Below are positions 12,446-25,035 of a DNA stretch of 64,000 nt, one piece after another (the stretch's first letter is position 1; the number at the start of each line of letters is the position of its first letter). The position numbers and the translations under genes were made by a program. Under the pieces are notes generated by a model. The model saw only the letters and a program-made list of their open reading frames with translations. It did no database searches and had not been told where the DNA came from. The stretch spans positions 1-64,000 of the forward strand of contig JABFSN010000049.1 in assembly GCA_013140575.1 (NCBI GenBank), in the 5' to 3' direction. The DNA is from Phycisphaerales bacterium (GTDB lineage Bacteria; Planctomycetota; Phycisphaerae; UBA1845).

Positions 12446-12754
12446 GACCCGAAACTTAATCTGCGTCACAACACTAGCCGAATGCGCACCACCGCGGGCG
12501 GAATGGGTGGTCGAGATAACGCATAGATTTAAGTTTGCGTCGCCGCGAGCTCAATATAGGCTACGGTTTTATCGGCGAACGAAAGTGATGGTCGAATTCG
12601 TTCCGGTTTTGTCTCGATGCTGGTGCCCGCTATAATAGGGGTCGGCGCGCTAGGGGTGAGATTGGGGGCCGTCGTTGCAACCTCGGTCCGAAAGGTCCGG
12701 GGAGATAGCCTACCCTGCCCCAAACCCGGCGGTCTGATTTCAGGAGGAGGAGAA

Positions 12755-14395
12755 GTGCGAAATCGCATTATCGTGGTTTGCATTGCCCTTGTTTTGACCG
12801 GGGTGTGGGGGCCGTCGGCGTCGGCCGGGGTGATTCTACCGCCGGACGGTGCGGCGCTGAACTACACGCACGTTCCGTTCCGCTGGGAGCCGCTGGGGTT
12901 TTCGTTCCTGCCTGGCGGCGGGGCGGCGTATCAACTCCAGGTGGTGGAGGACAACGGCATGGCCGACCCGTTCGCGGGGCAGCCGAGCGCGGTGTTCCTG
13001 GCCAATGTCGACGCGCATGAACCGCGGATCGTCGTCCGTCAAGGACTGGAGTTTGGGAAGTCGTATGCGTGGCGGGTACGCGGGTTTGAATACGACCCAA
13101 CGCCGTGGAGCGCTACGTATCGGTTTTCGATACCGGCGCTGCCGGCGTACGTTCCGACGTTTTCGGTCACGGAGACGGGCGCACCGATTCAGCCGGGAAT
13201 CACGATGCTGACAATCTTTTCACAGGCCGGTCAGATTCCGGGCGGTCAGGCGTTGTTCGTGGCGGTCGACGAGGACGGGAAGGTAATCTGGCATCTCACG
13301 ACCGGGTCGGTGTTCGGCAATGACCTGCGGCTGCTGGAGAACGGGCGCATCTTGTACATCTCGTCCAATCGGGGGACGGAGGGCACGTTGGCCGGGGGAA
13401 TCGCGTGGCAATCGCCGGCCGATCCGAACCAGCAGGTGCACCACGAGATTTTTCCGATGCCCAACGGCGACAAGCTGGCGGTGCTGTATGAATTTCGGGA
13501 TGTGATGGTGGGCGGCATGCCGCAGTCGTGGCGCGGGGATCGCATCGTGGTGTACGACCGCCATACGAGCGACATCGTGTGGAGTTGGAGCACGTTCGAT
13601 TACCTATCCACGCTCGATTTCGACGCGACGACGATGACAGCGCCGGATCCGCAGGGAAAATACCGATGGACTTGGACGAACGCGGGTATTTATAACGAGC
13701 TGGACAACAGCGTCTACATTTCATGCCGGCACCTGAACCGGGTGGTGCGGATCGACTACGACACCGGGGAGATCGTCTATAACATGGGATTCGACGCGGC
13801 GTCGGGCGAGGTGGACTTCGGCGACAACTTGTTTTCGTTTCAACACGGGCTGGAAGCGCTGCCCAACGGCAATCTGCTGGTCTATGACAACGGCAACCGG
13901 CGGAACCACATGGACCAGACGTCTGCAACGGGCATGACCAAGGTGATTGAACTGGCGTTCGGCGGCGGCGAGCCGCCGAGCGGGGCGTCGATCGTCTGGC
14001 AATACACGCTGCCCAGCTATAACAATTTCGTGGGCAGCAATCACCGCCAGCCGAACGGCAACACGGTGATTACGGCGGGCGCGGCGGCGCAGGTGATTGA
14101 AGTGGACGCAACGGGCACCGAGGTCTGGCGGCTCAGCCGGGTCGGCGGCGGGGTGCCGAACTATGGCATTTATCGATCCACACGGGACGCGTCGTTGATT
14201 GTCGATACGCCGGGCGATACGGACGGCGACTGGGATCTGGACAGCCGCGACTTCGGTCAATGGCAGGTGTGTTACACGGGCTCCGGCCCGGCCGATCTGG
14301 ATTTTCCGTGCACGCTGTGCGACGTGGACGGCGACGACGACGTGGACGCGGAGGACTGGTCGCGTTTTGAAGACGAGAGCACGGGGCCGCTGTAG
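12755..14395 (+). CDS. Secreted arylsulfotransferase-like protein with dockerin-like tail, 546 aa
   Basis: GTG at 12755 follows a strong AGGAGGAGGAG site and gives a signal peptide (IIVVCIALVLTGVWGPSASA). Residues about 25-130 form a fibronectin-like module; about 150-470 is an arylsulfotransferase (ASST)-type propeller with HHEIFPMPNGDKL, RIVVYDRHTSDIVWSW and FQHGLEALPNGNLLVYDNGN, containing the His and NGN motifs of the family. The last 60 residues carry two Asp/Gly calcium-binding-like repeats (DTDGDWDLDSRDF, DVDGDDDVDAEDW) of dockerin type. Exported; may act on sulfated polymers or be structural. The next gene starts 42 bases downstream and repeats this module, so the two form an operon. 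Confidence 0.8.
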   Translation: MRNRIIVVCIALVLTGVWGPSASAGVILPPDGAALNYTHVPFRWEPLGFSFLPGGGAAYQLQVVEDNGMADPFAGQPSAVFLANVDAHEPRIVVRQGLEFGKSYAWRVRGFEYDPTPWSATYRFSIPALPAYVPTFSVTETGAPIQPGITMLTIFSQAGQIPGGQALFVAVDEDGKVIWHLTTGSVFGNDLRLLENGRILYISSNRGTEGTLAGGIAWQSPADPNQQVHHEIFPMPNGDKLAVLYEFRDVMVGGMPQSWRGDRIVVYDRHTSDIVWSWSTFDYLSTLDFDATTMTAPDPQGKYRWTWTNAGIYNELDNSVYISCRHLNRVVRIDYDTGEIVYNMGFDAASGEVDFGDNLFSFQHGLEALPNGNLLVYDNGNRRNHMDQTSATGMTKVIELAFGGGEPPSGASIVWQYTLPSYNNFVGSNHRQPNGNTVITAGAAAQVIEVDATGTEVWRLSRVGGGVPNYGIYRSTRDASLIVDTPGDTDGDWDLDSRDFGQWQVCYTGSGPADLDFPCTLCDVDGDDDVDAEDWSRFEDESTGPL

Positions 14396-14437: not shown

Positions 14438-17400
14438 GTGAATCGGCGAATGAACCAGTACGTTCGTCGATCGCGTCACAGACCGGCATCATCATTCGGC
14501 GGCGGACGCGGATTTCGGGCATTGTCGGTCGCGGCCGCCCTGGCGTCGGCGGCGTGCGTGGCGGTCGGCCAGCCCGTTGAGGTGCGCATTAATTGTGGGA
14601 CGCAGTCGGGGGCGGCTGCGTACACGGACTTTTTCGGCCACATCTGGGAAGCGGACCGGGCCTACGATACGTCCGCGGAGCCGAAGAGCGGTTATGTCGG
14701 CGGGGAGATGGAGTCGTGCGTCAGTCTCGGGCTGTACGGCGGGACGATGGACTCGGTGCTCTATCAGACATCCCGTTCGGGATTCAGCGAATACCGCTTT
14801 GACGTGCCCACCGGCTTCTATTCCGTGCGATTGCGATTCGTGGAGAAATGCGTACACGGTCCGGGCTTTCGCGTTTTTGACGTAGGTATCGAGGGAGTCC
14901 CGGTCCGCGCCGGCTTTGACATTGCGGCCGAGGTGGGCAAGGACTACGCCCTCGACTACACATTCCCCGCAGTGGTGGGGGACGGCGTGTTAAACGTCTC
15001 GGTGACGCCGGGAACCGGATCGCCCACGCTCGCGGCCATCGCCGTGGTCAGCGCCAATCCGGATACGTCCGCGCCCTTCCCGCCGAGCGGACTGACCGCG
15101 CGGGGCGGATTCTCGGAGAACCTGCTGGTCTGGTATCCGGGCATGGAAATCGACCGGGCGGGATGTCACGTCTATCGATCGGCGTCGGCAGGTGGTCCGT
15201 TTGAGCGCATCGACGCGGGGATCGTGGCAACACATCGCTACATCGACCGCGCTGCAGCGGTGGGCGCCGAGTTGTTCTATCAAGTGCGGGCCGTGGATAT
15301 CTGGGGTAATGAGGGGAACGCAACGGCGATAGTCTCAGCGACGGCCGTCGCTCCGTACGATACGCCCCTGTCGACTTACGACCTCTCCATCGACGCGTTG
15401 GCGCTGAGCACCCTGTATTACGACGTGAACGCCGAAACGACCGTCGGCACGACGCTGACGTACGGTGGCGAGACGTTCGACGGCGTGGCCGCACGGTTCA
15501 TCGACGTGCTGCCCGTGAACGCATCCAAGAAAGGGTGGCGATTGGAGTTCGACGAGGCGCGGCCGCTGGTGGACCGCACGTGGGTGGCGCTGCACTCGTT
15601 GTTTTCCGATTTCTTCATGCTTCGCGACGCTCTGGGGCTGGGCATTTTCGAGGCCGTCGGCGCGGACGCGCCGGCCGGATCGTACGTGCATCTGAACGTC
15701 AATGACGAGTTCTGGGGCGTCTATCTGGACGTGGAGGAGGTGACTAACGACTTTCTTGAGCGCCGAGGATTGAGCACGGGCGGCGACCTCTACGAGGCCG
15801 TCGCGGGCCGATTGAACAGTCTGTCGGCGTCCGGGGAGTACTCGGCAGCGTACAGGAAAATTAACAACCCGGACTCGACCTATGACGATTTGATTTATTT
15901 CATTGAGAAGATCGACGCAACCGAGGGCGAGGCGTTTCCGGTCGCGATGCACCAGTTGTTGGACGTGCGGCAGGTTCTGGACTATTACGCGGCGACGATT
16001 CTGATCGGGAACGTCTCTTTTTCGGCGTTCAACTATTACGTTTATCATGATCCGATGCGTGGCCGATGGATGGTGTTTCCGAAAGACCTGGCGAGCGGCT
16101 TCGGAATCGGCACGGTTCTGGGGACCGAGGCGTGGGCGACGCCGATCAACCTGGGCGTGGAGGGCGTTTTCCCGGAACACGTGTTTGCGTCGAATGTCCT
16201 GATCACCCGGCTGATGGCGGTGGACGCGTTTCGCGATTACGTCGCGGACCGTCTGGAAGGCTGGATTGCCACGCTCTTCAATCCGACGATCATGAATCCG
16301 GCGATCGACGTGGTTTTCGATCACATCAAGGCGGATGTCCATCGAGACGTTCGCAAGCTGGGGTGGGAGAAGAACGATCTTTTCAATGCCGGACCGGCGG
16401 CGATGAAGGCGTTCGTGGCTCAACGCGGGCCGTTTCTGGTGAATGAAATACCCGGCTTCGCGCCGCGCGGCGGTCCCTACCTTTCCATTAACGAGGTGAT
16501 GGCGATCAACGACGGCGCCCTACGGGACGAATTCGGCGAGTCCGATCCGTGGATCGAACTGTATAACGGCGGCGCGGACGACGTCGAGCTCGGGGGCATG
16601 TATGTGACGACGAACATGGCCAAGCCTCAACAATGGCCGATTCCGGCGGGGGTGACGATGGGACCGGGGGGTCACGTGGTGTTCTGGGCGGACGAATCAA
16701 CGGCCCAGGGATCCACGCACGCTGCGATTTCGTTGAGCGCCGGCGGCGGACTGGTCGCACTCTTCGCGTCGGACGGGGAGACGCTGATCGACGCATTCGA
16801 ATACGGACCGCAAGCGGCCGGTGTGTCCGTGGGTCGCCGCCCAGACGGCGGCGGCGAGCCGATTGGGTTAAGTTCGGCGTCGCCCGGCGACTGGAATTAT
16901 GTTCTGAATACGCCGCCGGCCATTTTGAACACGCGGCATTCGCCGCGTTATCCCGCGGCGGACGCCGAAGTCGTGGTGACGTCGCTGGTGCATGACGATC
17001 GTGATGTGGACGCGGTCTCGTTAATCGTGGATGTGGGACTGGAGCCGGACGCGATCCAGATGTTCGACGACGGGGCGCACGGCGACGGCGACGCGGGCGA
17101 CGGCCTGTATGGGACGACGATTCCGCCGGCGCCGGAGGGTCTGCTCGTCCGGTATTACGTGCTCGCGATCGACTCGCAGTCGGCCATTTCGCGCGATCCG
17201 GTGAATGCCCCCGCTGAACAGTATTCCTACGTCGCGGGATTCGTTCCAGAAGAGACCGTCACTCCGCTCGAGGGCGCGATGCTGTCGGCCGTCCATGTCT
17301 TGTTCGGCTTCGATCCGATTGAAGGCGCCGATCGCTACGAATTGCAGGTCTTTTTGGATGACGTCGATGAAACTCCGCTGGGCGAAGCGCCGATTATCGA

Positions 17401-18799
17401 AGCGCAGATGAGCCGGCCGCGGCGCGTCGTCACGGAGGGTCTCGCGTTTGGACATAGCTACGCGTGGCGGGTGCGACCGATCGACGGCCTGGGAACGCGG
17501 GGCGAATGGGCGCCGTCGCACCGGTTTTCGATCGCGTCGATCGATCCGAATTTGCAGGGAAGAATCACCGTGACCAACGCCATTCCAGACCGGTATGGGC
17601 CGGGCGTAACGTTGTTTGACGCGTGGGCGATTCCGGGAACGTCGGGATTGAACTTCGACTATCTGCTGGCCATTGACCAGACGGGGCGACTCGTGTTGGC
17701 CATGCCGTTGGACCCATTCGGCCCACTTGTCTCGGGCGACGTGCGCCTTCTTCGGAATGGACACCTGTTGATCGGCAAGCCCACCGAGGCGTACGAAGTG
17801 ACGCTTGACGGCGCGATCGTGCGAAGCACGGAGGGAATGGGTCTGCTCGTGGACAGTCACGAATTATTCGACATGCCCAACGGAAACTGGCTGTTCATGA
17901 TCGATGACGTGCGGACCGTCACGCGCAACAACGAAGAGCAGCAATGGGCGGGTCATCGCATTGTGGAACTGACCACAGAGGGCGACGTCGTATGGGACTG
18001 GAACACGTTTGACCATTTATCGACCCTTGATTTCGACGAGTGTTTGATGGAATTCCCCCGCCCGACCGGATCCTACGACTGGATTCACGGCAACGGCGTG
18101 GTCTACGACGCGGTGGAGCAGGCCGTCTATCTTTCGTCGCGGCATCTGTCCCGTATCGTCAAGATCGACTATTTGACGGGCGACGTCATTTGGAACATGG
18201 GTCTGGACCAGCCGTCCGGCGAGGTCGATTTCCCGGTCGATCTGTTCAGCTTTCAACATTCGCCGCACATTCTCGAAAGCGGGAACATACTTCTCTACGA
18301 TAACGGCAATCGCCGCGGAAACACGGACTGCGAATCGCCCCATCCGTATTCCGCGGCCATTGAACTAAGGGTGGACCCGCAGTCGCCGACGCCGGTGACC
18401 GTGGCGTGGGAATATCGCCAGAATCTCTACAGCGCCACGAAGGGGGACGCCGATCGGCTGCGCAACGGCAATACACTCATCACCGGCGGACATGCCGGAG
18501 CGGCGGTGATACAGGAAGTGACGCGCGAAGGCGAATTGGCATGGGAGATGCGATTGCCGTTTCCGTCCTCCATGTATCGTGCCGAACGCGTCGCATCACT
18601 CTATCCGCTGCGCGGCGACGTGGACGGCGACGACGACCTCGATGTGCGCGACTTCGCCGACTTGCAGCGGTGTTATCACGGGGCCGACATGTACGCCTTC
18701 CATCGTAATTGCCTCGTCCATGACCGCGACGAAGACGGGGACGTGGACGCAGACGACTTCGCCGGCTTCGCTCTCTCGGTCACGGGCGACGGCCCATAA
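14438..18799 (+). CDS. Giant secreted multidomain protein: malectin, CotH, lamin-tail, arylsulfotransferase, dockerin-like, 1453 aa
   Basis: GTG start at 14438 (ATG 14450 is an alternative), then a signal peptide ending near residue 45. Domains in order, read by eye: malectin-like (about 48-205, EVRINCGTQSGAA), fibronectin III-like (212-305), CotH kinase-like (313-670), lamin-tail domain (683-800, SINEVMAINDG), a beta module (830-915), a second fibronectin-like module (943-1020), an ASST-type propeller (1041-1385, HELFDMPNGNWL), and dockerin-like repeats (1393-1450). In CotH, the usual NWD...NYY and PWDLD motifs are altered to NVSFSAFNYY (about 525) and PKDLASGFG (548), so at least one catalytic Asp seems lost. 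The C-terminal 400 residues are paralogous to the upstream gene. Role at the cell surface is inferred from export and domain types. Confidence 0.8.
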   Translation: MNRRMNQYVRRSRHRPASSFGGGRGFRALSVAAALASAACVAVGQPVEVRINCGTQSGAAAYTDFFGHIWEADRAYDTSAEPKSGYVGGEMESCVSLGLYGGTMDSVLYQTSRSGFSEYRFDVPTGFYSVRLRFVEKCVHGPGFRVFDVGIEGVPVRAGFDIAAEVGKDYALDYTFPAVVGDGVLNVSVTPGTGSPTLAAIAVVSANPDTSAPFPPSGLTARGGFSENLLVWYPGMEIDRAGCHVYRSASAGGPFERIDAGIVATHRYIDRAAAVGAELFYQVRAVDIWGNEGNATAIVSATAVAPYDTPLSTYDLSIDALALSTLYYDVNAETTVGTTLTYGGETFDGVAARFIDVLPVNASKKGWRLEFDEARPLVDRTWVALHSLFSDFFMLRDALGLGIFEAVGADAPAGSYVHLNVNDEFWGVYLDVEEVTNDFLERRGLSTGGDLYEAVAGRLNSLSASGEYSAAYRKINNPDSTYDDLIYFIEKIDATEGEAFPVAMHQLLDVRQVLDYYAATILIGNVSFSAFNYYVYHDPMRGRWMVFPKDLASGFGIGTVLGTEAWATPINLGVEGVFPEHVFASNVLITRLMAVDAFRDYVADRLEGWIATLFNPTIMNPAIDVVFDHIKADVHRDVRKLGWEKNDLFNAGPAAMKAFVAQRGPFLVNEIPGFAPRGGPYLSINEVMAINDGALRDEFGESDPWIELYNGGADDVELGGMYVTTNMAKPQQWPIPAGVTMGPGGHVVFWADESTAQGSTHAAISLSAGGGLVALFASDGETLIDAFEYGPQAAGVSVGRRPDGGGEPIGLSSASPGDWNYVLNTPPAILNTRHSPRYPAADAEVVVTSLVHDDRDVDAVSLIVDVGLEPDAIQMFDDGAHGDGDAGDGLYGTTIPPAPEGLLVRYYVLAIDSQSAISRDPVNAPAEQYSYVAGFVPEETVTPLEGAMLSAVHVLFGFDPIEGADRYELQVFLDDVDETPLGEAPIIEAQMSRPRRVVTEGLAFGHSYAWRVRPIDGLGTRGEWAPSHRFSIASIDPNLQGRITVTNAIPDRYGPGVTLFDAWAIPGTSGLNFDYLLAIDQTGRLVLAMPLDPFGPLVSGDVRLLRNGHLLIGKPTEAYEVTLDGAIVRSTEGMGLLVDSHELFDMPNGNWLFMIDDVRTVTRNNEEQQWAGHRIVELTTEGDVVWDWNTFDHLSTLDFDECLMEFPRPTGSYDWIHGNGVVYDAVEQAVYLSSRHLSRIVKIDYLTGDVIWNMGLDQPSGEVDFPVDLFSFQHSPHILESGNILLYDNGNRRGNTDCESPHPYSAAIELRVDPQSPTPVTVAWEYRQNLYSATKGDADRLRNGNTLITGGHAGAAVIQEVTREGELAWEMRLPFPSSMYRAERVASLYPLRGDVDGDDDLDVRDFADLQRCYHGADMYAFHRNCLVHDRDEDGDVDADDFAGFALSVTGDGP

Positions 18800-18895
18800 C
18801 ACTCCCCGTAGATTGCCACGAAGCATTGGATGAACAGAATGCCTGCACCGGGAAACGGTCCATCGACTCGACGAACGCCGAATTCGAACGGGGGC

Positions 18896-20023
18896 ATGCG
18901 CATCGGGCTGGACGGAGACATTCTTGGCCGGCGGCGGACGGGCGACGAAAGCTATCTCGTCGGTCTGATGCGCGGACTGGCAACGGTCGACCGGGAGAAC
19001 GACTACGTCGTGTATGTGCGTGACGTTGAGCGCGTGCGACCGATGTTCGCGGACGGTCATGCGTTCGATTTCCAGGCCGTGACGCCGCGATCTATCTGGC
19101 TGCGGTTCGCGTATGGTCTGCCGGCTGCACTGCGCCGCGAGCCCGTCGATCTGCTTCACGTGCAGTATTTCGTGCCGCCGCGGACGCGGGCGCCCGTCGT
19201 GGTCACCGCCCACGACATTTCGTTCGCGGTTCATCCGGAGTACTTTACGCGGCGCGATCGCCTGTTGCTCGGTCGGCTGGTTCCGTGGTCGCTACGGCGG
19301 GCGGATCAGATCATCACCGACGCGGAATTCACCCGCGACGAAATGACACGCGTTTATGGTCTCGATCCCGGGCGTATCGCGGTGATACCCCTTGCGGCCG
19401 ATCCGCGTTACCGACCGCTGGACCGCGAGCGATGCCGGGCGACGGTCGCCGACCGGCATGGCACGCATGACGGCTTTCTGTTGTACGTGGGCACGTTGCA
19501 ACCGCGAAAAAACGTGGCCGCCCTGGTGGAGGCCTACGCGGAATTTCGGCGCCGCACGCGAATGCCGCATAAACTGGTGATCACCGGGCGGCCCAAGTAT
19601 CAATTCGCGCCGGTGTTCGAGGCGATCGCGCGATCGGGTTTCGAACGCGATATCGTCTTTACCGGATGGGTCGACGACGCCGATATCCCGATGTATTACA
19701 ATGCGGCCGATGCGTTTGTGTTCACCACGCTGTACGAGGGGTTTGGACTTCCGGTGGTGGAGGCGATGGCTTGCGGAACGCCGGTGATCTGTTCCAATAA
19801 CTCGTGCATGCCGGAAACGGCGGGCTCGGCCGCGGTGCTGGTGAATCCGCGGGATGTTAACTCCATCGCGGAGGCGATGGTTCGTGTGATGACCGATTCC
19901 ACCGAGCGGGACCGTCTGCGGGAGGCGGGACTCCGCCGGTCGGCGGAATTAAGTTGGGAGCGGACGGCCCGGCAGACGCTGACCGTCTATCGAGATGTAA
20001 TGGCGCGGAGGAACGGCCGGTGA
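18896..20023 (+). CDS. Glycosyltransferase, GT4 family, 375 aa
   Basis: A GT-B fold sugar transferase. The N-terminus MRIGLDGDILGRRRTGDESY resembles the GIGRY-type start of GT4 enzymes; LLYVGTLQPRKNVAALVEAY opens the donor-binding half and FTTLYEGFGLPVVEAMACGTP holds the conserved E-x7-E motif that binds the nucleotide-sugar. It likely transfers a sugar (mannose or rhamnose are the activated sugars made nearby) onto a surface glycan at the cytoplasmic face. In-frame ATGs at 18830 and 18839 are possible; 18896 matches the family N-terminus. The next gene starts within its stop codon. Confidence 0.88.
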   Translation: MRIGLDGDILGRRRTGDESYLVGLMRGLATVDRENDYVVYVRDVERVRPMFADGHAFDFQAVTPRSIWLRFAYGLPAALRREPVDLLHVQYFVPPRTRAPVVVTAHDISFAVHPEYFTRRDRLLLGRLVPWSLRRADQIITDAEFTRDEMTRVYGLDPGRIAVIPLAADPRYRPLDRERCRATVADRHGTHDGFLLYVGTLQPRKNVAALVEAYAEFRRRTRMPHKLVITGRPKYQFAPVFEAIARSGFERDIVFTGWVDDADIPMYYNAADAFVFTTLYEGFGLPVVEAMACGTPVICSNNSCMPETAGSAAVLVNPRDVNSIAEAMVRVMTDSTERDRLREAGLRRSAELSWERTARQTLTVYRDVMARRNGR

Positions 20024-20859
20024 ACGTCGCGTGTCCTGTTTCGACTCCTGGGTCGGCGCCGGTCGGCGCCGTTGTCGATGTGCATATTGTAGTCGTTACG
20101 CACGGTCATTTTAGATATCTTGAACCCTGCCTCACATCCATCTTCGAAAACACCGACCGCGCTTCCTTGAAAGTAACGTTGGTGGACAACCTGCGTGAGC
20201 CGCGCGTTACGGAGCTGATCCGCGGGCGATTTCCGCAGGTCGAATTGGTGGTCAACGAAGCGCCGAAAGGGTTTGCGGAGAATAACAACAGTGCGTTCGC
20301 CGGCACGCCGGCACGATATTGTTTTCTTCTGAATCCGGACACGGTCGTTAAGACCGGTGCGGTCGACAAACTGATGGACTGGATGGACGCGCATCCCGAA
20401 CTCGGGGCCTGCGCTCCCAAACTCGTTTACCCCGACGGACAGATTCAATTGTCGTGCCGGCGTTTTCCATCGGTCGGCAGCGTTATTCTTCGCCGCACGC
20501 CGTTGCGTCTATTGCTTGGCGAATCGGCATTCACACGCGGGTATACCATGGCCGACTGGGACCACAACTCGCACCGGTCCATCGACTGGATGTTCGGCGC
20601 GGCCATTTTCGCCCGCCGCGAGGCGTGGATCGAGGTGGGGCCGCTGGATACGACCATGTTCATGTTCTGCGAAGACATTGACTGGTGTTTGCGGTGTCAC
20701 CGCGCGGGGTGGGGTATCGACTACGTGCCGGACGCCGTCATCGTTCACGATTTTGACGAGGAGAAATACAATCGTTATTTCACGCGGGGTCGATTCAGGC
20801 ACTACAAGACGATGTTGCAGTTTTTCTTCAAGTATCCGCGTTATTGTCTGCGTTGGTAA
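20020..20859 (+). CDS. Glycosyltransferase, GT2 family (rhamnosyltransferase-like), 279 aa
   Basis: GTG at 20020 overlaps the previous TGA (GTGA) and is preceded by GGAGG, so translation is coupled; this start is preferred over upstream 19954. The GT-A core shows VDVHIVVVTHGHFRYLEPC, FAENNNSAF and LLNPDTVV (DxD-like), then FMFCEDIDWCLR with the ED motif typical of GT2 rhamnosyltransferase-like enzymes. The neighbouring dTDP-rhamnose operon makes L-rhamnose a plausible donor. No membrane segments. Confidence 0.88.
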   Translation: MNVACPVSTPGSAPVGAVVDVHIVVVTHGHFRYLEPCLTSIFENTDRASLKVTLVDNLREPRVTELIRGRFPQVELVVNEAPKGFAENNNSAFAGTPARYCFLLNPDTVVKTGAVDKLMDWMDAHPELGACAPKLVYPDGQIQLSCRRFPSVGSVILRRTPLRLLLGESAFTRGYTMADWDHNSHRSIDWMFGAAIFARREAWIEVGPLDTTMFMFCEDIDWCLRCHRAGWGIDYVPDAVIVHDFDEEKYNRYFTRGRFRHYKTMLQFFFKYPRYCLRW

Positions 20860-20880
20860 TTGCGGAGCACGGTGAGCGCG

Positions 20881-21885
20881 ATGGCCGGAACGATCGGGCG
20901 AGAATTCGACGGCGTGATTCTGGCGGCCGGACGGGGCACGCGCATGGCGCCTTTTTCGGATCGTTATCCAAAACCGCTGCTGCCCATTTTGAACAAGCCG
21001 CTGATCTGTCATCAAATTGAATATCTGCGGGACATGGGGGCGGGGCGAATCGTCGTGGTCATCGGCCATCTTGGTCACGAGATCGCGCAGCATCTCGGTC
21101 GCGGCGAGGCGTTCGGCGTTCAGATCGATTACGTGGAACAACGCGATTCGTTGGGCATCGCCCATGCGGTCATGCAGCTCGAACCGCACATTCAGCGGCC
21201 TTTCGCCATGTTATTGGGGGATATTTATTTCGATATGGATCGGTCCATTGATCCATTGGCGCGCATGCGTGACGAATCGGCCGCCGGTCTACTCGCGATT
21301 ATGAACGAGCCCGATGCAGTCGCGTTGCGTCGCAACTTCGCGGTGCACATGGACGAAAACCGCCGCGTGCTCCGCGTCGTGGAAAAACCCCGATTTCCGC
21401 GCACGCATTGGAAGGGTTGCGGGCTCTACGTGCTGGACGTATCGTTTTTTGACGCGGTACGGCGCACGCCGCGGACGGCCGGCCGCAATGAATACGAAAT
21501 AACCGACGCCATTCAGATTTTCATCGACGACGGAGCCAGGGTGATCGCTTGCGATATGGTCTCCATCGACATCAACCTGACCTATCCATACGACGTCTTA
21601 TTGGCGAATCTGCACGCACTGCGAACGGCCGGTCTGGACAATGCGGTGGCGCCCGGCGCGAAGATCGATCCGTCCGCGAACCTCCACCAGTGCGTGATCG
21701 GCGCCGGCGCACGAATCGGGCCCGGCGCGTCACTGCGACACGTCGTCGTCATGCCCAACAGCGTGGTCTCGACGCGCGAACCGATCGACCGCACGGTGAT
21801 TACCGTGGACCAGATGGTGGATTGCCGCTATTGGGTGAATTCCGGCGGCGCACCTGCCGGACGGGGCGAACAAATCGTTCACTGA
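20881..21885 (+). CDS. Sugar-1-phosphate nucleotidyltransferase with left-handed beta-helix tail, 334 aa
   Basis: The N-terminal nucleotidyltransferase domain starts GVILAAGRGTRMAPFSDR with YPKPLLPILNKP, followed by LGIAHAV and LLGDIYF. After about residue 240 come hexapeptide-like repeats (VAPGAKIDPSANLHQCVIGAGARIGPGA-type spacing), giving a GlmU/RmlA-like layout. It should join a sugar 1-phosphate with an NTP; neither is identifiable from sequence. TTG 20860 and GTG 20872 are alternative starts; a GGAG lies at 20864-20867. It is 21 bases after the GT2 gene and completes the plus-strand glycan set. Confidence 0.82.
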   Translation: MAGTIGREFDGVILAAGRGTRMAPFSDRYPKPLLPILNKPLICHQIEYLRDMGAGRIVVVIGHLGHEIAQHLGRGEAFGVQIDYVEQRDSLGIAHAVMQLEPHIQRPFAMLLGDIYFDMDRSIDPLARMRDESAAGLLAIMNEPDAVALRRNFAVHMDENRRVLRVVEKPRFPRTHWKGCGLYVLDVSFFDAVRRTPRTAGRNEYEITDAIQIFIDDGARVIACDMVSIDINLTYPYDVLLANLHALRTAGLDNAVAPGAKIDPSANLHQCVIGAGARIGPGASLRHVVVMPNSVVSTREPIDRTVITVDQMVDCRYWVNSGGAPAGRGEQIVH

Positions 21886-21890
21886 CGAAT

Positions 21891-22760
21891 TCATTCCGCG
21901 GTGGCGGCGCGCCGATTCACCACGTACTCGGCCAGCGCCAGGGACCAGTGCCGCGGTTGGTGCCCGGTCGCAGTCTCGTATTTCGACGCATCGAGCGCGC
22001 TGTTGGCGGGCCGCGCCGCGGGCGTCGGGTAGGCCGCGGTGACGACGGCCTCCACGGGAGTGGACAGACCAGCCAGTTCAATCGCCCGGCACGCCAATTC
22101 GTAGCGCGTCGTCGTACCGCCGTTGACGATGTGGTAGAGGCCGGTCGCATCCAGGCGCATCAGGCGTTCGACGCACTCGGCCATGTCTGCCGCGTTACTG
22201 GGATTCCCGCGCTGGTCATTGACGACGCGTAATGGCTGACCAGTCTCGGCGCGAGCCAGGATGGCGTCTATAAAATTCCTGCCGCCGGGGCCGTACAGCC
22301 ACGCGGCGCGGACGATCAGATGCCGCGTCGCGTGCCGCGCGCTCTGCTCGCCGAGCATTTTCGAGCGTCCATACGTGCTGATCGGCGCCGGCGGGTCGTC
22401 TTCGCGATACGGGACGGCGGATCGCCCGTCAAAAACGTAGTCCGTACTGATGTGCAGCAACGCTGCTCCGGACTCGTCGGATATTGCCGCCAGATCGGCG
22501 ACTGCCCGGGCGTTGACTCGATCGGCGGAATCCGCCTGCGATTCGCAGGCGTCGACATTGGTGAATGCGGCTGCGTTGACCACCCACGCGGGGCGGCCGG
22601 CGACGATCGCCTGTCGCAGCCTGTCGCGGTCGGTGATGTCAAGTTGACGCCGCTCGTAGGCTTGAACGTCCCAGGCGCCCGTATCACCCAGACGATTGAC
22701 GATTTGACGACCGAACTGGCCACCGGCCCCCAGCACGATAACGCGCGTGGGTGTTTTCAC
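21891..22760 (-). CDS. rfbD: dTDP-4-dehydrorhamnose reductase, 289 aa
   Basis: Last step of dTDP-L-rhamnose synthesis. The NAD(P) site GAGGQFGRQ, ISTDYVFDG and the YGRSKMLGE (YxxxK) catalytic pair are as in RmlD/RfbD. GTG at 22760 overlaps the rfbB stop as GTGA, fixing the start. It ends only 5 bases from the convergent nucleotidyltransferase gene, leaving no room for a terminator hairpin between the two clusters. Confidence 0.93.
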   Translation of the reverse strand: MKTPTRVIVLGAGGQFGRQIVNRLGDTGAWDVQAYERRQLDITDRDRLRQAIVAGRPAWVVNAAAFTNVDACESQADSADRVNARAVADLAAISDESGAALLHISTDYVFDGRSAVPYREDDPPAPISTYGRSKMLGEQSARHATRHLIVRAAWLYGPGGRNFIDAILARAETGQPLRVVNDQRGNPSNAADMAECVERLMRLDATGLYHIVNGGTTTRYELACRAIELAGLSTPVEAVVTAAYPTPAARPANSALDASKYETATGHQPRHWSLALAEYVVNRRAATAE

Positions 22761-23803
22761 GTTGCGATACGCCGGCCGTACTGGCGTTCGTAATAGTTCC
22801 GATACTCGCCGGACCGGACCGTCGACGACCAGTCCTGATGCTCGATGTACCACTGCACGGTCTGCTTCAGACCGTCGGCGAACAGATGCCGCGGCCGCCA
22901 GCCGAGTTCACCGCGGATTTTGCCGTCGTTGAGCGCGTAGCGACGATCGTGTCCTGGACGATCCTGGACATATCGAATCGACCGCTCATCGCGGCCCATG
23001 ATCTCGACGATGCGGCGGGTCAATTCCAGATTGGTAATGCGTTCCGAAGACGTGATGTTATAGATGTCTCCAGCCCGTCCGGTCTCCAGAACGCAGACAA
23101 TGGCCGCGCAATGGTCTTCCACGTGCAGCCATTCCCGTTCGTGCAGACCGTCGCCATACAACGGAACGGGCTTACCCGCCAGCAGATTGGTGACGAATAA
23201 CGGAATTACCTTTTCAGGATGCTGGAACGGCCCATAATTGTTGCAGCAGCGCGTTATGACGGCGTTCAAACCGAAACTCCGGACATAGGCCAACGTCAGA
23301 AGATCGCCGCCGGACTTGGTCGCCGAATAGGGATTCCCGGGACGGTAGGCCGTCTCCTCGTCCGCCCGTTCGTCAGGCCCCTGCGCTCCGTAGACTTCGT
23401 CCGTCGACACTTGCAAAAACCGCATCTCCGGCCGCTGCTTAATCGCCTCCAGCAACACCTGCACTCCGCCCACATTGGTTCCCGCGAAATCGTCGCCACC
23501 CAACAGACTGCGGTCCACGTGCGTATGAGCGGCCGCGTTGATGACGCCATCCACACCGGCGTCCAACAGACGTCCGATCAGTTCGGCATCGCGGATATCA
23601 CCGCGCACGAACTGAAATCCGGTGTCCTGTTCAAGACCCGCCAGATTCGCGAGATTGCCGGCATACGTCAACGCATCCACGCAGACCAATGACGTATCGC
23701 GCCGATGGACGCGCAGCCAATGCGCCAGATTGGAGCCGATAAACCCGGCCGCACCGGTGACGACTAATCGCTTGGCCTGGAATACCGAAGTGTCAGTCGA
23801 CAA
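22757..23803 (-). CDS. rfbB: dTDP-glucose 4,6-dehydratase, 348 aa
   Basis: SDR enzyme of dTDP-rhamnose synthesis. Motifs: VVTGAAGFIGSNLAHWL (NAD site), STDEVYG and NPYSATKSGGD (catalytic Tyr/Lys), TRCCNNYGPFQHPEK. No ATG or GTG lies close to the domain start; TTG at 23803, inside the end of rfbA and preceded by AGGG, is the likely start, giving an 11-base overlap. Coupled to rfbA upstream and rfbD downstream. Confidence 0.92.
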   Translation of the reverse strand: MSTDTSVFQAKRLVVTGAAGFIGSNLAHWLRVHRRDTSLVCVDALTYAGNLANLAGLEQDTGFQFVRGDIRDAELIGRLLDAGVDGVINAAAHTHVDRSLLGGDDFAGTNVGGVQVLLEAIKQRPEMRFLQVSTDEVYGAQGPDERADEETAYRPGNPYSATKSGGDLLTLAYVRSFGLNAVITRCCNNYGPFQHPEKVIPLFVTNLLAGKPVPLYGDGLHEREWLHVEDHCAAIVCVLETGRAGDIYNITSSERITNLELTRRIVEIMGRDERSIRYVQDRPGHDRRYALNDGKIRGELGWRPRHLFADGLKQTVQWYIEHQDWSSTVRSGEYRNYYERQYGRRIAT

Positions 23804-24533
23804 GATTGGCACCCTGATCGCGCACCAGACCGCCGGCGCGCAGCAGCGAATCAAACGTCCCGGCATCGCTCCACCAACCGTCCAGCACCTGGTAGGTCAG
23901 CGTGCCCTGCCGAATGTACGCGTTGTTGACGTCGGTGATCTCCAGTTCGCCGCGGCCCGACGGCTTCAACGTCTTGATAACTTCAAACACGTACGCGTCA
24001 TACAGATAGATGCCGATGACGGCCAGATTCGTTGCGGGCCGGCTCGGCTTCTCGACGATGCGCACGACGCGATCACCGTTGACCTCGGCCACACCGAACC
24101 GTTCGGCGTCCGGCACCTCTTTCAGCAGGATCTTGGCCCCGCGGGGTTGGGCCGCAAAATCGGACGCCGCACGGCGGATGTTCTTCTGAATGATGTTATC
24201 GCCCAGCACGACGCAGATCCTGCCGCCGTCCGCGAAATCCTCGGCCAGACGCAGTGCATCGGCGATGCCGCCTTCACCCTTCTGGTAGGTGTATTGCAAC
24301 TTGCGGACGCCGAGATCACGGCCGTCGCCCAGCAATTGAAGAAAATCACCGGCGTGCTGTCCGCCGGTCACCAGCAGAATCTCGTCAATACCCGCATTAA
24401 TCATCGTCTGAATGGGATAGAACACCATCGGCTTGTCATAGACCGGCAACAGATGCTTGTTGGTGACCTTGGTCACCGGCAGCATGCGCGCCCCCAGACC
24501 GCCCGCCAGAATGACGCCCTTGATGCTACCCAT
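23793..24533 (-). CDS. rfbA: Glucose-1-phosphate thymidylyltransferase, 246 aa
   Basis: First step of dTDP-rhamnose synthesis. Starts MGSIKGVILAGGLGARMLPV followed by TNKHLLPVYDKPMVFYPI, with VLGDNII and the EKPSRPATNLAVIGIYLYD region typical of RmlA. At 246 aa it is shorter than the roughly 290-aa enterobacterial enzyme and lacks its C-terminal helices, which corresponds to the short RmlA/StrD type. The start overlaps the end of the upstream epimerase gene by 8 bases. Confidence 0.9.
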   Translation of the reverse strand: MGSIKGVILAGGLGARMLPVTKVTNKHLLPVYDKPMVFYPIQTMINAGIDEILLVTGGQHAGDFLQLLGDGRDLGVRKLQYTYQKGEGGIADALRLAEDFADGGRICVVLGDNIIQKNIRRAASDFAAQPRGAKILLKEVPDAERFGVAEVNGDRVVRIVEKPSRPATNLAVIGIYLYDAYVFEVIKTLKPSGRGELEITDVNNAYIRQGTLTYQVLDGWWSDAGTFDSLLRAGGLVRDQGANLVD

Positions 24534-25035
24534 CGTGGCGCGCCCAATCATAGGGAATGCCGGGATCGTCGGGGGCAATGCGATGTTCGTCCGGCTGATC
24601 GTAGTTGAAGAGTTCGGTGGGCATGTTCAGGACGATGGTCTCCCCTTCACTGATGCACTTATAGCCGTGATAGACCAGCGGCGGGATTTTGATCAGCAGC
24701 GGTTGAAAATCACCAGCGAAAAACTCATTCACGACGCCCCGCGTCGACGACCCATCACGGGGATCGAACAGAACGATTTTGGCCATACCGTAAACCACCG
24801 CGAAATGGTCCGTCTGTCTGTGATGAAAGTGCCACGCCTTGACAACACCGGGATAGGCAGTGGTCATGTAGATCTGGCCGAACTTCTCAAACAGTTCGTC
24901 GTCGCTGCGCAGTATCTCCATCAGCCGCCCGCGCTCGTCGCAGTGCGCCTTCAGCGACTTGACGCAGACGCCCTGAATGATGCGTCGCGGCTCGGAGGAC
25001 ACCGTGTCTCCCTTCGCTTCCACTGCCTCGTTCAT
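24526..25035 (-). CDS. rfbC: dTDP-4-dehydrorhamnose 3,5-epimerase-like protein, 169 aa
   Basis: A cupin-fold epimerase: DERGRLMEILRSDDELFEKF, the metal-free active-site region VVKAWHFHHRQTDHF, and IPPLVYHGYKCIS, followed by a Pro/Asp-rich tail ending RIAPDDPGIPYDW. The HxH-type sequence HFHHRQTD matches the WDxxHxxRFTD-like subgroup rather than the classical RmlC WHxQ core, so it may be a 3,5- or related sugar epimerase. First gene of the overlapping rfbC-A-B-D set, which supports the RfbC role. Start at 25035 (ATG); GTG at 25050 is possible. Confidence 0.85.
   Translation of the reverse strand: MNEAVEAKGDTVSSEPRRIIQGVCVKSLKAHCDERGRLMEILRSDDELFEKFGQIYMTTAYPGVVKAWHFHHRQTDHFAVVYGMAKIVLFDPRDGSSTRGVVNEFFAGDFQPLLIKIPPLVYHGYKCISEGETIVLNMPTELFNYDQPDEHRIAPDDPGIPYDWARHDG

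Follow-up and report, generated by a model that had tools for sequence, protein, structure and literature searches.

A gene joining CotH kinase-like and arylsulfotransferase-type modules in a single predicted exported protein of a Phycisphaerales bacterium

The window analysed here, a stretch of 64,000 nucleotides from a Phycisphaerales bacterium, contains a gene whose product carries both a CotH kinase-like domain and an arylsulfotransferase (ASST) propeller. The frame (14438-18799, + strand) runs for 1453 codons without a stop, or 1467 codons from stop to stop. Its modules follow in the order Malectin, Fn3-like, CotH, lamin-tail (LTD), choice-of-anchor-X, Ig-like domain with ASST propeller, and dockerin-like tail. 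The features are as follows.

12617..14395, +: upstream stand-alone ASST of 592 aa, same subfamily, 39% to residues 941-1450
14438..18799, +: complete gene of 1453 aa, starting with GTG, with an ATG at codon 5 (14450)
14438..14569, +: N-terminal signal-like segment, residues 1-44; a basic stretch, then hydrophobic ALSVAAALASAACVAVG (judged on sequence alone)
14570..15067, +: Malectin module, residues 45-210 (Pfam PF11721 at 49-190; solved malectins)
15068..15361, +: Fn3-like module, residues 211-308 (phmmer hit on 3mpc, an Fn3-like protein, E 0.003)
15368..16447, +: CotH kinase-like domain, residues 311-670 (Pfam; structure model)
15500..15505, +: Ile355-Asp356 in place of [K/R]-G (K/R in 28/30 and G in 27/30 other sequences)
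15794..15796, +: Glu453 in place of the family Lys of LYK (K in 23/30 others)
16016..16018, +: Ser527 (TCT) in place of the catalytic Asp (D in 20/30, H in 10/30, S in 0/30 others)
16082..16087, +: Lys549-Asp550, Trp lost and metal-site Asp kept (W in 24/30, D in 30/30 others)
16463..16837, +: LTD module, residues 676-800 (Pfam PF00932)
16895..17248, +: choice-of-anchor-X module, residues 820-937 (NCBIfam NF041940; repeated in the relative L095)
17246..17251, +: border between two building plans, residues 937/938, where N-half matches end and ASST-half matches start
17249..17617, +: beta-sandwich before the propeller, residues 938-1060 (common to stand-alone ASST proteins; strands in the model)
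17618..18607, +: ASST beta-propeller, residues 1061-1390 (Pfam; best PDB matches 9kf4, Cpz4, and E. coli AssT)
18257..18259, +: His1274, counterpart of His436 in E. coli AssT (placed by eye)
18608..18796, +: dockerin-like tail carrying two DxDxDxD loops, residues 1391-1453 (similar tails in the genome; three helices in the model)

Four module families match the 1453-residue protein above their curated Pfam cut-offs. These are Malectin (PF11721, residues 49-190, 60.2 bits against 23, E 3e-16), CotH (PF08757, residues 363-666, 155.9 bits against 23.8, E 2e-45), LTD (residues 681-790, E 2e-12), and ASST (PF05935, residues 1071-1365, 137 bits against 24.2, E 1e-39). The initial annotation had placed these four in one protein, and the single frame bears this out; its list omitted the Fn3-like module (43% to the equivalent place in L095), the choice-of-anchor-X module (NCBIfam match at residues 873-901), the Ig-like region at 938-1060, and the dockerin-like tail. 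It had also overlooked the upstream stand-alone ASST. The signal-like N-terminus suggests that the product is exported.

The CotH domain retains its fold and has lost part of its active site. Residues 313-670 had been put forward for structure prediction, and our model of residues 306-680 (pTM 0.80, 13 sequences) is a CotH fold, with 5jd9/5jda (B. cereus CotH) as best PDB matches (TM 0.80/0.83) and the next fold far behind. We aligned 31 sequences: the studied protein, 5jd9, and 29 CotH loci from relatives, drawn from 84 listed matches of which only those with a locus were taken in. The active site is not intact in this alignment. The nearest CotH relative, L044/L095, has canonical residues at the positions altered here, and the Ser527 codon is two changes away from an Asp codon. 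The initial annotation had described the catalytic Asp positions as altered; this is correct for one (Ser527), while the other, Asp550, is kept. Metal-site Asn532 (Asn in 29/30 others) and Lys364/365 are also kept. Judging by the Asp-x4-Asn spacing, the Asp of 5jd9 at the Ser527 position is probably the equivalent of B. subtilis Asp228. Replacement of that residue in B. subtilis CotH (D228Q) gives an inactive protein, according to PMC7821199.

With Ser527, Ile355-Asp356, Glu453, and Lys549 at these positions, the domain is probably a pseudokinase. The retained Asn532 and Asp550 may still permit metal or nucleotide binding, and even an unusual activity is conceivable. A bifunctional enzyme, in which an unusual active CotH kinase and a sulfotransferase would place phosphate and sulfate onto the same extracellular target, would draw on these two residues, on Lys364/365, and on the CotH fold. 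We nevertheless consider it quite improbable, given a Ser for the catalytic Asp and changes to [K/R]G, the LYK Lys, and the WD Trp that the nearest relative does not share. The protein offers a natural, clean example of a CotH domain without its catalytic residue.

His replaces the catalytic Asp in one group of CotH relatives (L052-L054, L056, L057, L059, L060, and L062-L064; 10/30). Absence of the Asp is therefore not rare in the superfamily.

The ASST propeller appears to be better preserved. Residues 1041-1385 had been proposed for modeling; we modeled residues 938-1453 (pTM 0.77, 8 sequences), and the nearest folds are Streptomyces Cpz4 (9kf4) and E. coli AssT, with 16-22% identity over the model. 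The motif HELFDMPNGN, noted earlier as retained, is present at 1141-1150. PMC13426309 gives the E. coli AssT active site as His252, His356, Asn358, Arg374, His436, and Thr501, with His436 being transiently sulfated. Alignment to 3elq places the first four at His1141, His1217, Asn1219, and Arg1235. His436 was left unaligned by the program, and comparison by eye of TQH...FDNG (3elq) with FQH...YDNG assigns it to His1274. The Thr501 place is occupied by Lys in this chain and by Val or Leu in close relatives. On these placements, the propeller keeps five of the six E. coli AssT active-site residues.

This retention bears on a different reading, in which the entire chain would be an adhesin or matrix protein built of modules, neither domain would be an enzyme, and the propeller would serve as a binding platform. 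The majority of its modules are indeed binding or structural, the neighboring ASST paralog has a Trp at the place equivalent to His356, and cellulosomal CotH proteins are discussed as structural parts in PMC12484212. However, five of six active-site residues are kept here and the nearest solved folds are active sulfotransferases, so that we regard the adhesin or matrix reading as possible, if doubtful.

The C-terminal tail is called dockerin-like. Its score against Dockerin_1 (PF00404) is 12.5 bits, below the cut-off of 22.9. Similar stretches occur at 19 places in the genome, which also contains five weak matches to cohesin (PF00963; E 2e-6 to 9e-4).

The gene appears, from its sequence relatives, to be a fusion of two otherwise separate proteins: one of malectin-Fn3-CotH-LTD-anchor-X type and one of beta-sandwich/ASST/dockerin-like type. 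The nearest relative of residues 28-938 is L095 (G037:C94), from the same bacterial family, which has the same module order and 45% identity over this span. L095 continues with more LTD and anchor-X repeats and without ASST, and its CotH residues are canonical. In contrast, the relatives of residues 938-1450 are stand-alone beta-sandwich and ASST proteins, most with the tail. Among them, L099, L100, L032, and the upstream gene share the beta-sandwich, propeller, and tail (38-43% to 938-1450) and lack the CotH half.

We take the fusion as real. Within 601 bases around the join, only weak matches of 39 and 79 bases were found elsewhere in the genome; the junction is thus unique, and misassembly is unlikely. 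GC3 is even on both sides (0.72-0.79), and repeats of at least 20 bases in the ASST gene pair (the studied and upstream genes) are limited to Asp-rich loops. An assembly or frame artefact joining two unrelated genes would be in keeping with a fusion known from only one draft metagenome-type assembly (268 contigs). It is nonetheless very improbable, considering the 101 kb contig, the 1467 in-frame codons, a join falling exactly at a module border with no repeat, and the even GC3.

The combination is rare, although its parts are not. Family counts cover 100 relatives and 294 phylum genomes, making 393 different genomes with its own included. ASST matches occur in 35/100 relatives and 67/294 phylum genomes, and CotH matches in 34/100 relatives and, among the matches listed, at least 88/294 phylum genomes. 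Both families are present in at least 46/393 genomes, own included, counted by eye among the matches listed. Among those matches, the 393 phylum genomes contain no second CotH and ASST chain. The initial annotation had considered the pairing unusual, and an occurrence of 1/393 genomes among the matches listed agrees with this. Pfam scans of all 19 other listed ASST frames with a length of 890 aa or more show CotH in none of them. Frames of 600-890 aa, checked by eye against listed CotH matches only, share no frame with CotH. A whole-protein search of 51 genomes of the family, in which the genus is represented by its own genome alone, finds no second fusion. Its own genome has one CotH gene and two ASST genes, the latter side by side.

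Among plasmids, 55 records match a part of the protein and none covers 80%. A broader contig scan by named organisms gave only four ASST relatives. A literature search for CotH together with arylsulfotransferase found nothing, one for arylsulfotransferase with Planctomycetes gave a single paper, and matches for CotH with Planctomycetes are at least partly surnames (the sole match in PMC7356697 is Cothenet). What is new is the combination, seen once, of known component families. It is a single domain-shuffling event so far and does not amount to a novel type of system.

In the phylum, ASST is often fused to other domains (19 long ASST frames). Six of the 19 (L112, L113, L114, L115, L118, and L119) pair it with a 3-keto-disaccharide hydrolase domain. 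L116 (G123:C1, 1547-4321) joins an alkyl sulfatase (Lactamase_B and Alkyl_sulf_dimr) to ASST, placing sulfate-releasing and sulfate-moving parts in one chain. L098 (G006:C224, 5455-9855, - strand) combines FGE-sulfatase, an SGL propeller, an anchor-X-like part, ASST, and the tail, and an adjacent gene contains two stretches of ASST.

Separate CotH and ASST genes lie within 5 kb of each other in 2/99 other relatives (G007:C293 and G069:C17). The rough chance expectation for such pairs is 0.13 (P about 0.007), a post hoc figure based on row counts and uncorrected for surface-gene islands. In the second case (L097, 4184-12773), ASST, VTC (polyphosphate polymerase type), DUF4956, HlyD-like, CotH, and OEP genes follow on the same strand, apparently as a single export operon. 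In the other genome set, L126 (G129:C10) encodes two consecutive large CotH-type proteins and, 4.5 kb on, an ASST beside a sulfatase.

The upstream ASST gene stops 42 bases before the studied gene. A recent tandem copy of it as the source of the propeller is rejected by the ASST tree, in which the upstream paralog clusters with G014, G034, and L032 (99/98) and the studied propeller falls outside that group, both lying within one larger group (100/99). Thirty bases downstream begin a GT4, then a GT2 and a nucleotidyltransferase gene. The region directly behind the gene (18830-24578) is a surface-glycan cluster of glycosyltransferase, nucleotidyltransferase, and RmlD-type genes. We rejected a conserved operon with these glycosyltransferases: no neighbor recurs beside ASST or CotH relatives at 9 loci. 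Sulfation of the polysaccharide made by the downstream cluster therefore stays a guess.

Most likely, the protein is a PAPS-independent sulfotransferase that is exported and dockerin-tailed, with its CotH part as a scaffold or ligand-binding module. The propeller, judging by its kept residues and fold, would accept sulfate onto His1274 from an aryl sulfate and then transfer it to a hydroxyl group on an extracellular acceptor. The malectin, Fn3, LTD, and calcium-loop tail modules may anchor the enzyme to a glycan or within an assembly that includes other tailed proteins. The CotH domain would be a scaffold or a nucleotide- or ligand-binding pseudokinase and not a kinase, given its lost residues. 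The description "surface enzyme or scaffold rather than a kinase" in the initial annotation remains the best reading, with the reservation that the alteration affects just one Asp position out of two and that the loss of kinase activity is a presumption. Against this explanation count the retained Asn532 and Asp550, the His at the Asp position in 10/30 CotH relatives, the conservation of the fusion in no other examined genome, the loss of Thr501, the finding of only two sulfatase genes in the genome, and the tail score below the dockerin cut-off. On balance, we lean somewhat toward an exported fusion in which binding modules hold a working sulfotransferase propeller, with CotH as scaffold or pseudokinase. 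A more specific version, in which the CotH pseudokinase holds metal or nucleotide and regulates or positions the propeller, as Fam20A serves Fam20C, would be unlikely.

PMC13426309 states that the natural substrate of the PAPS-independent sulfotransferase family is unknown after 40 years. If our reading is true, such an enzyme sits on a scaffold with sugar-binding modules, and the hunt for natural acceptors narrows to surface or matrix material. Only two sulfatase genes were seen in the genome, which therefore gives no sign of a rich sulfate-ester chemistry.

Comparison with known systems separates the familiar from the novel in this chain. With the Bacillus CotH spore coat kinase (5jd9/5jda), it shares the fold (TM 0.80), Asn532, and Asp550. 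It differs in having Ser527 for Asp, Ile-Asp for [K/R]G, Glu for Lys at 453, and Lys for Trp at 549, and in the embedding of the domain in a large modular chain. With E. coli AssT (3elq) and Cpz4 (9kf4), it shares the propeller fold, in which His1141, His1217, Asn1219, Arg1235, and His1274 can be placed; it differs in the lost Thr501, the low identity given above, and the fusion to CotH and binding modules. CotH-LTD-Fn3 proteins are found in cellulosomes, as described in PMC6083626 and PMC12484212, and the former presents Cthe_0239 as a cellulosomal CotH protein with the order LTD, LTD, Fn3, CotH. Proteins of the Cthe_0239 type share LTD, Fn3, and CotH with the present chain, are exported, and carry a dockerin, to which the dockerin-like tail corresponds here. 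The CotH-LTD-Fn3-dockerin half thus follows a known plan (PMC6083626), whereas the ASST and malectin of this chain are not named there.
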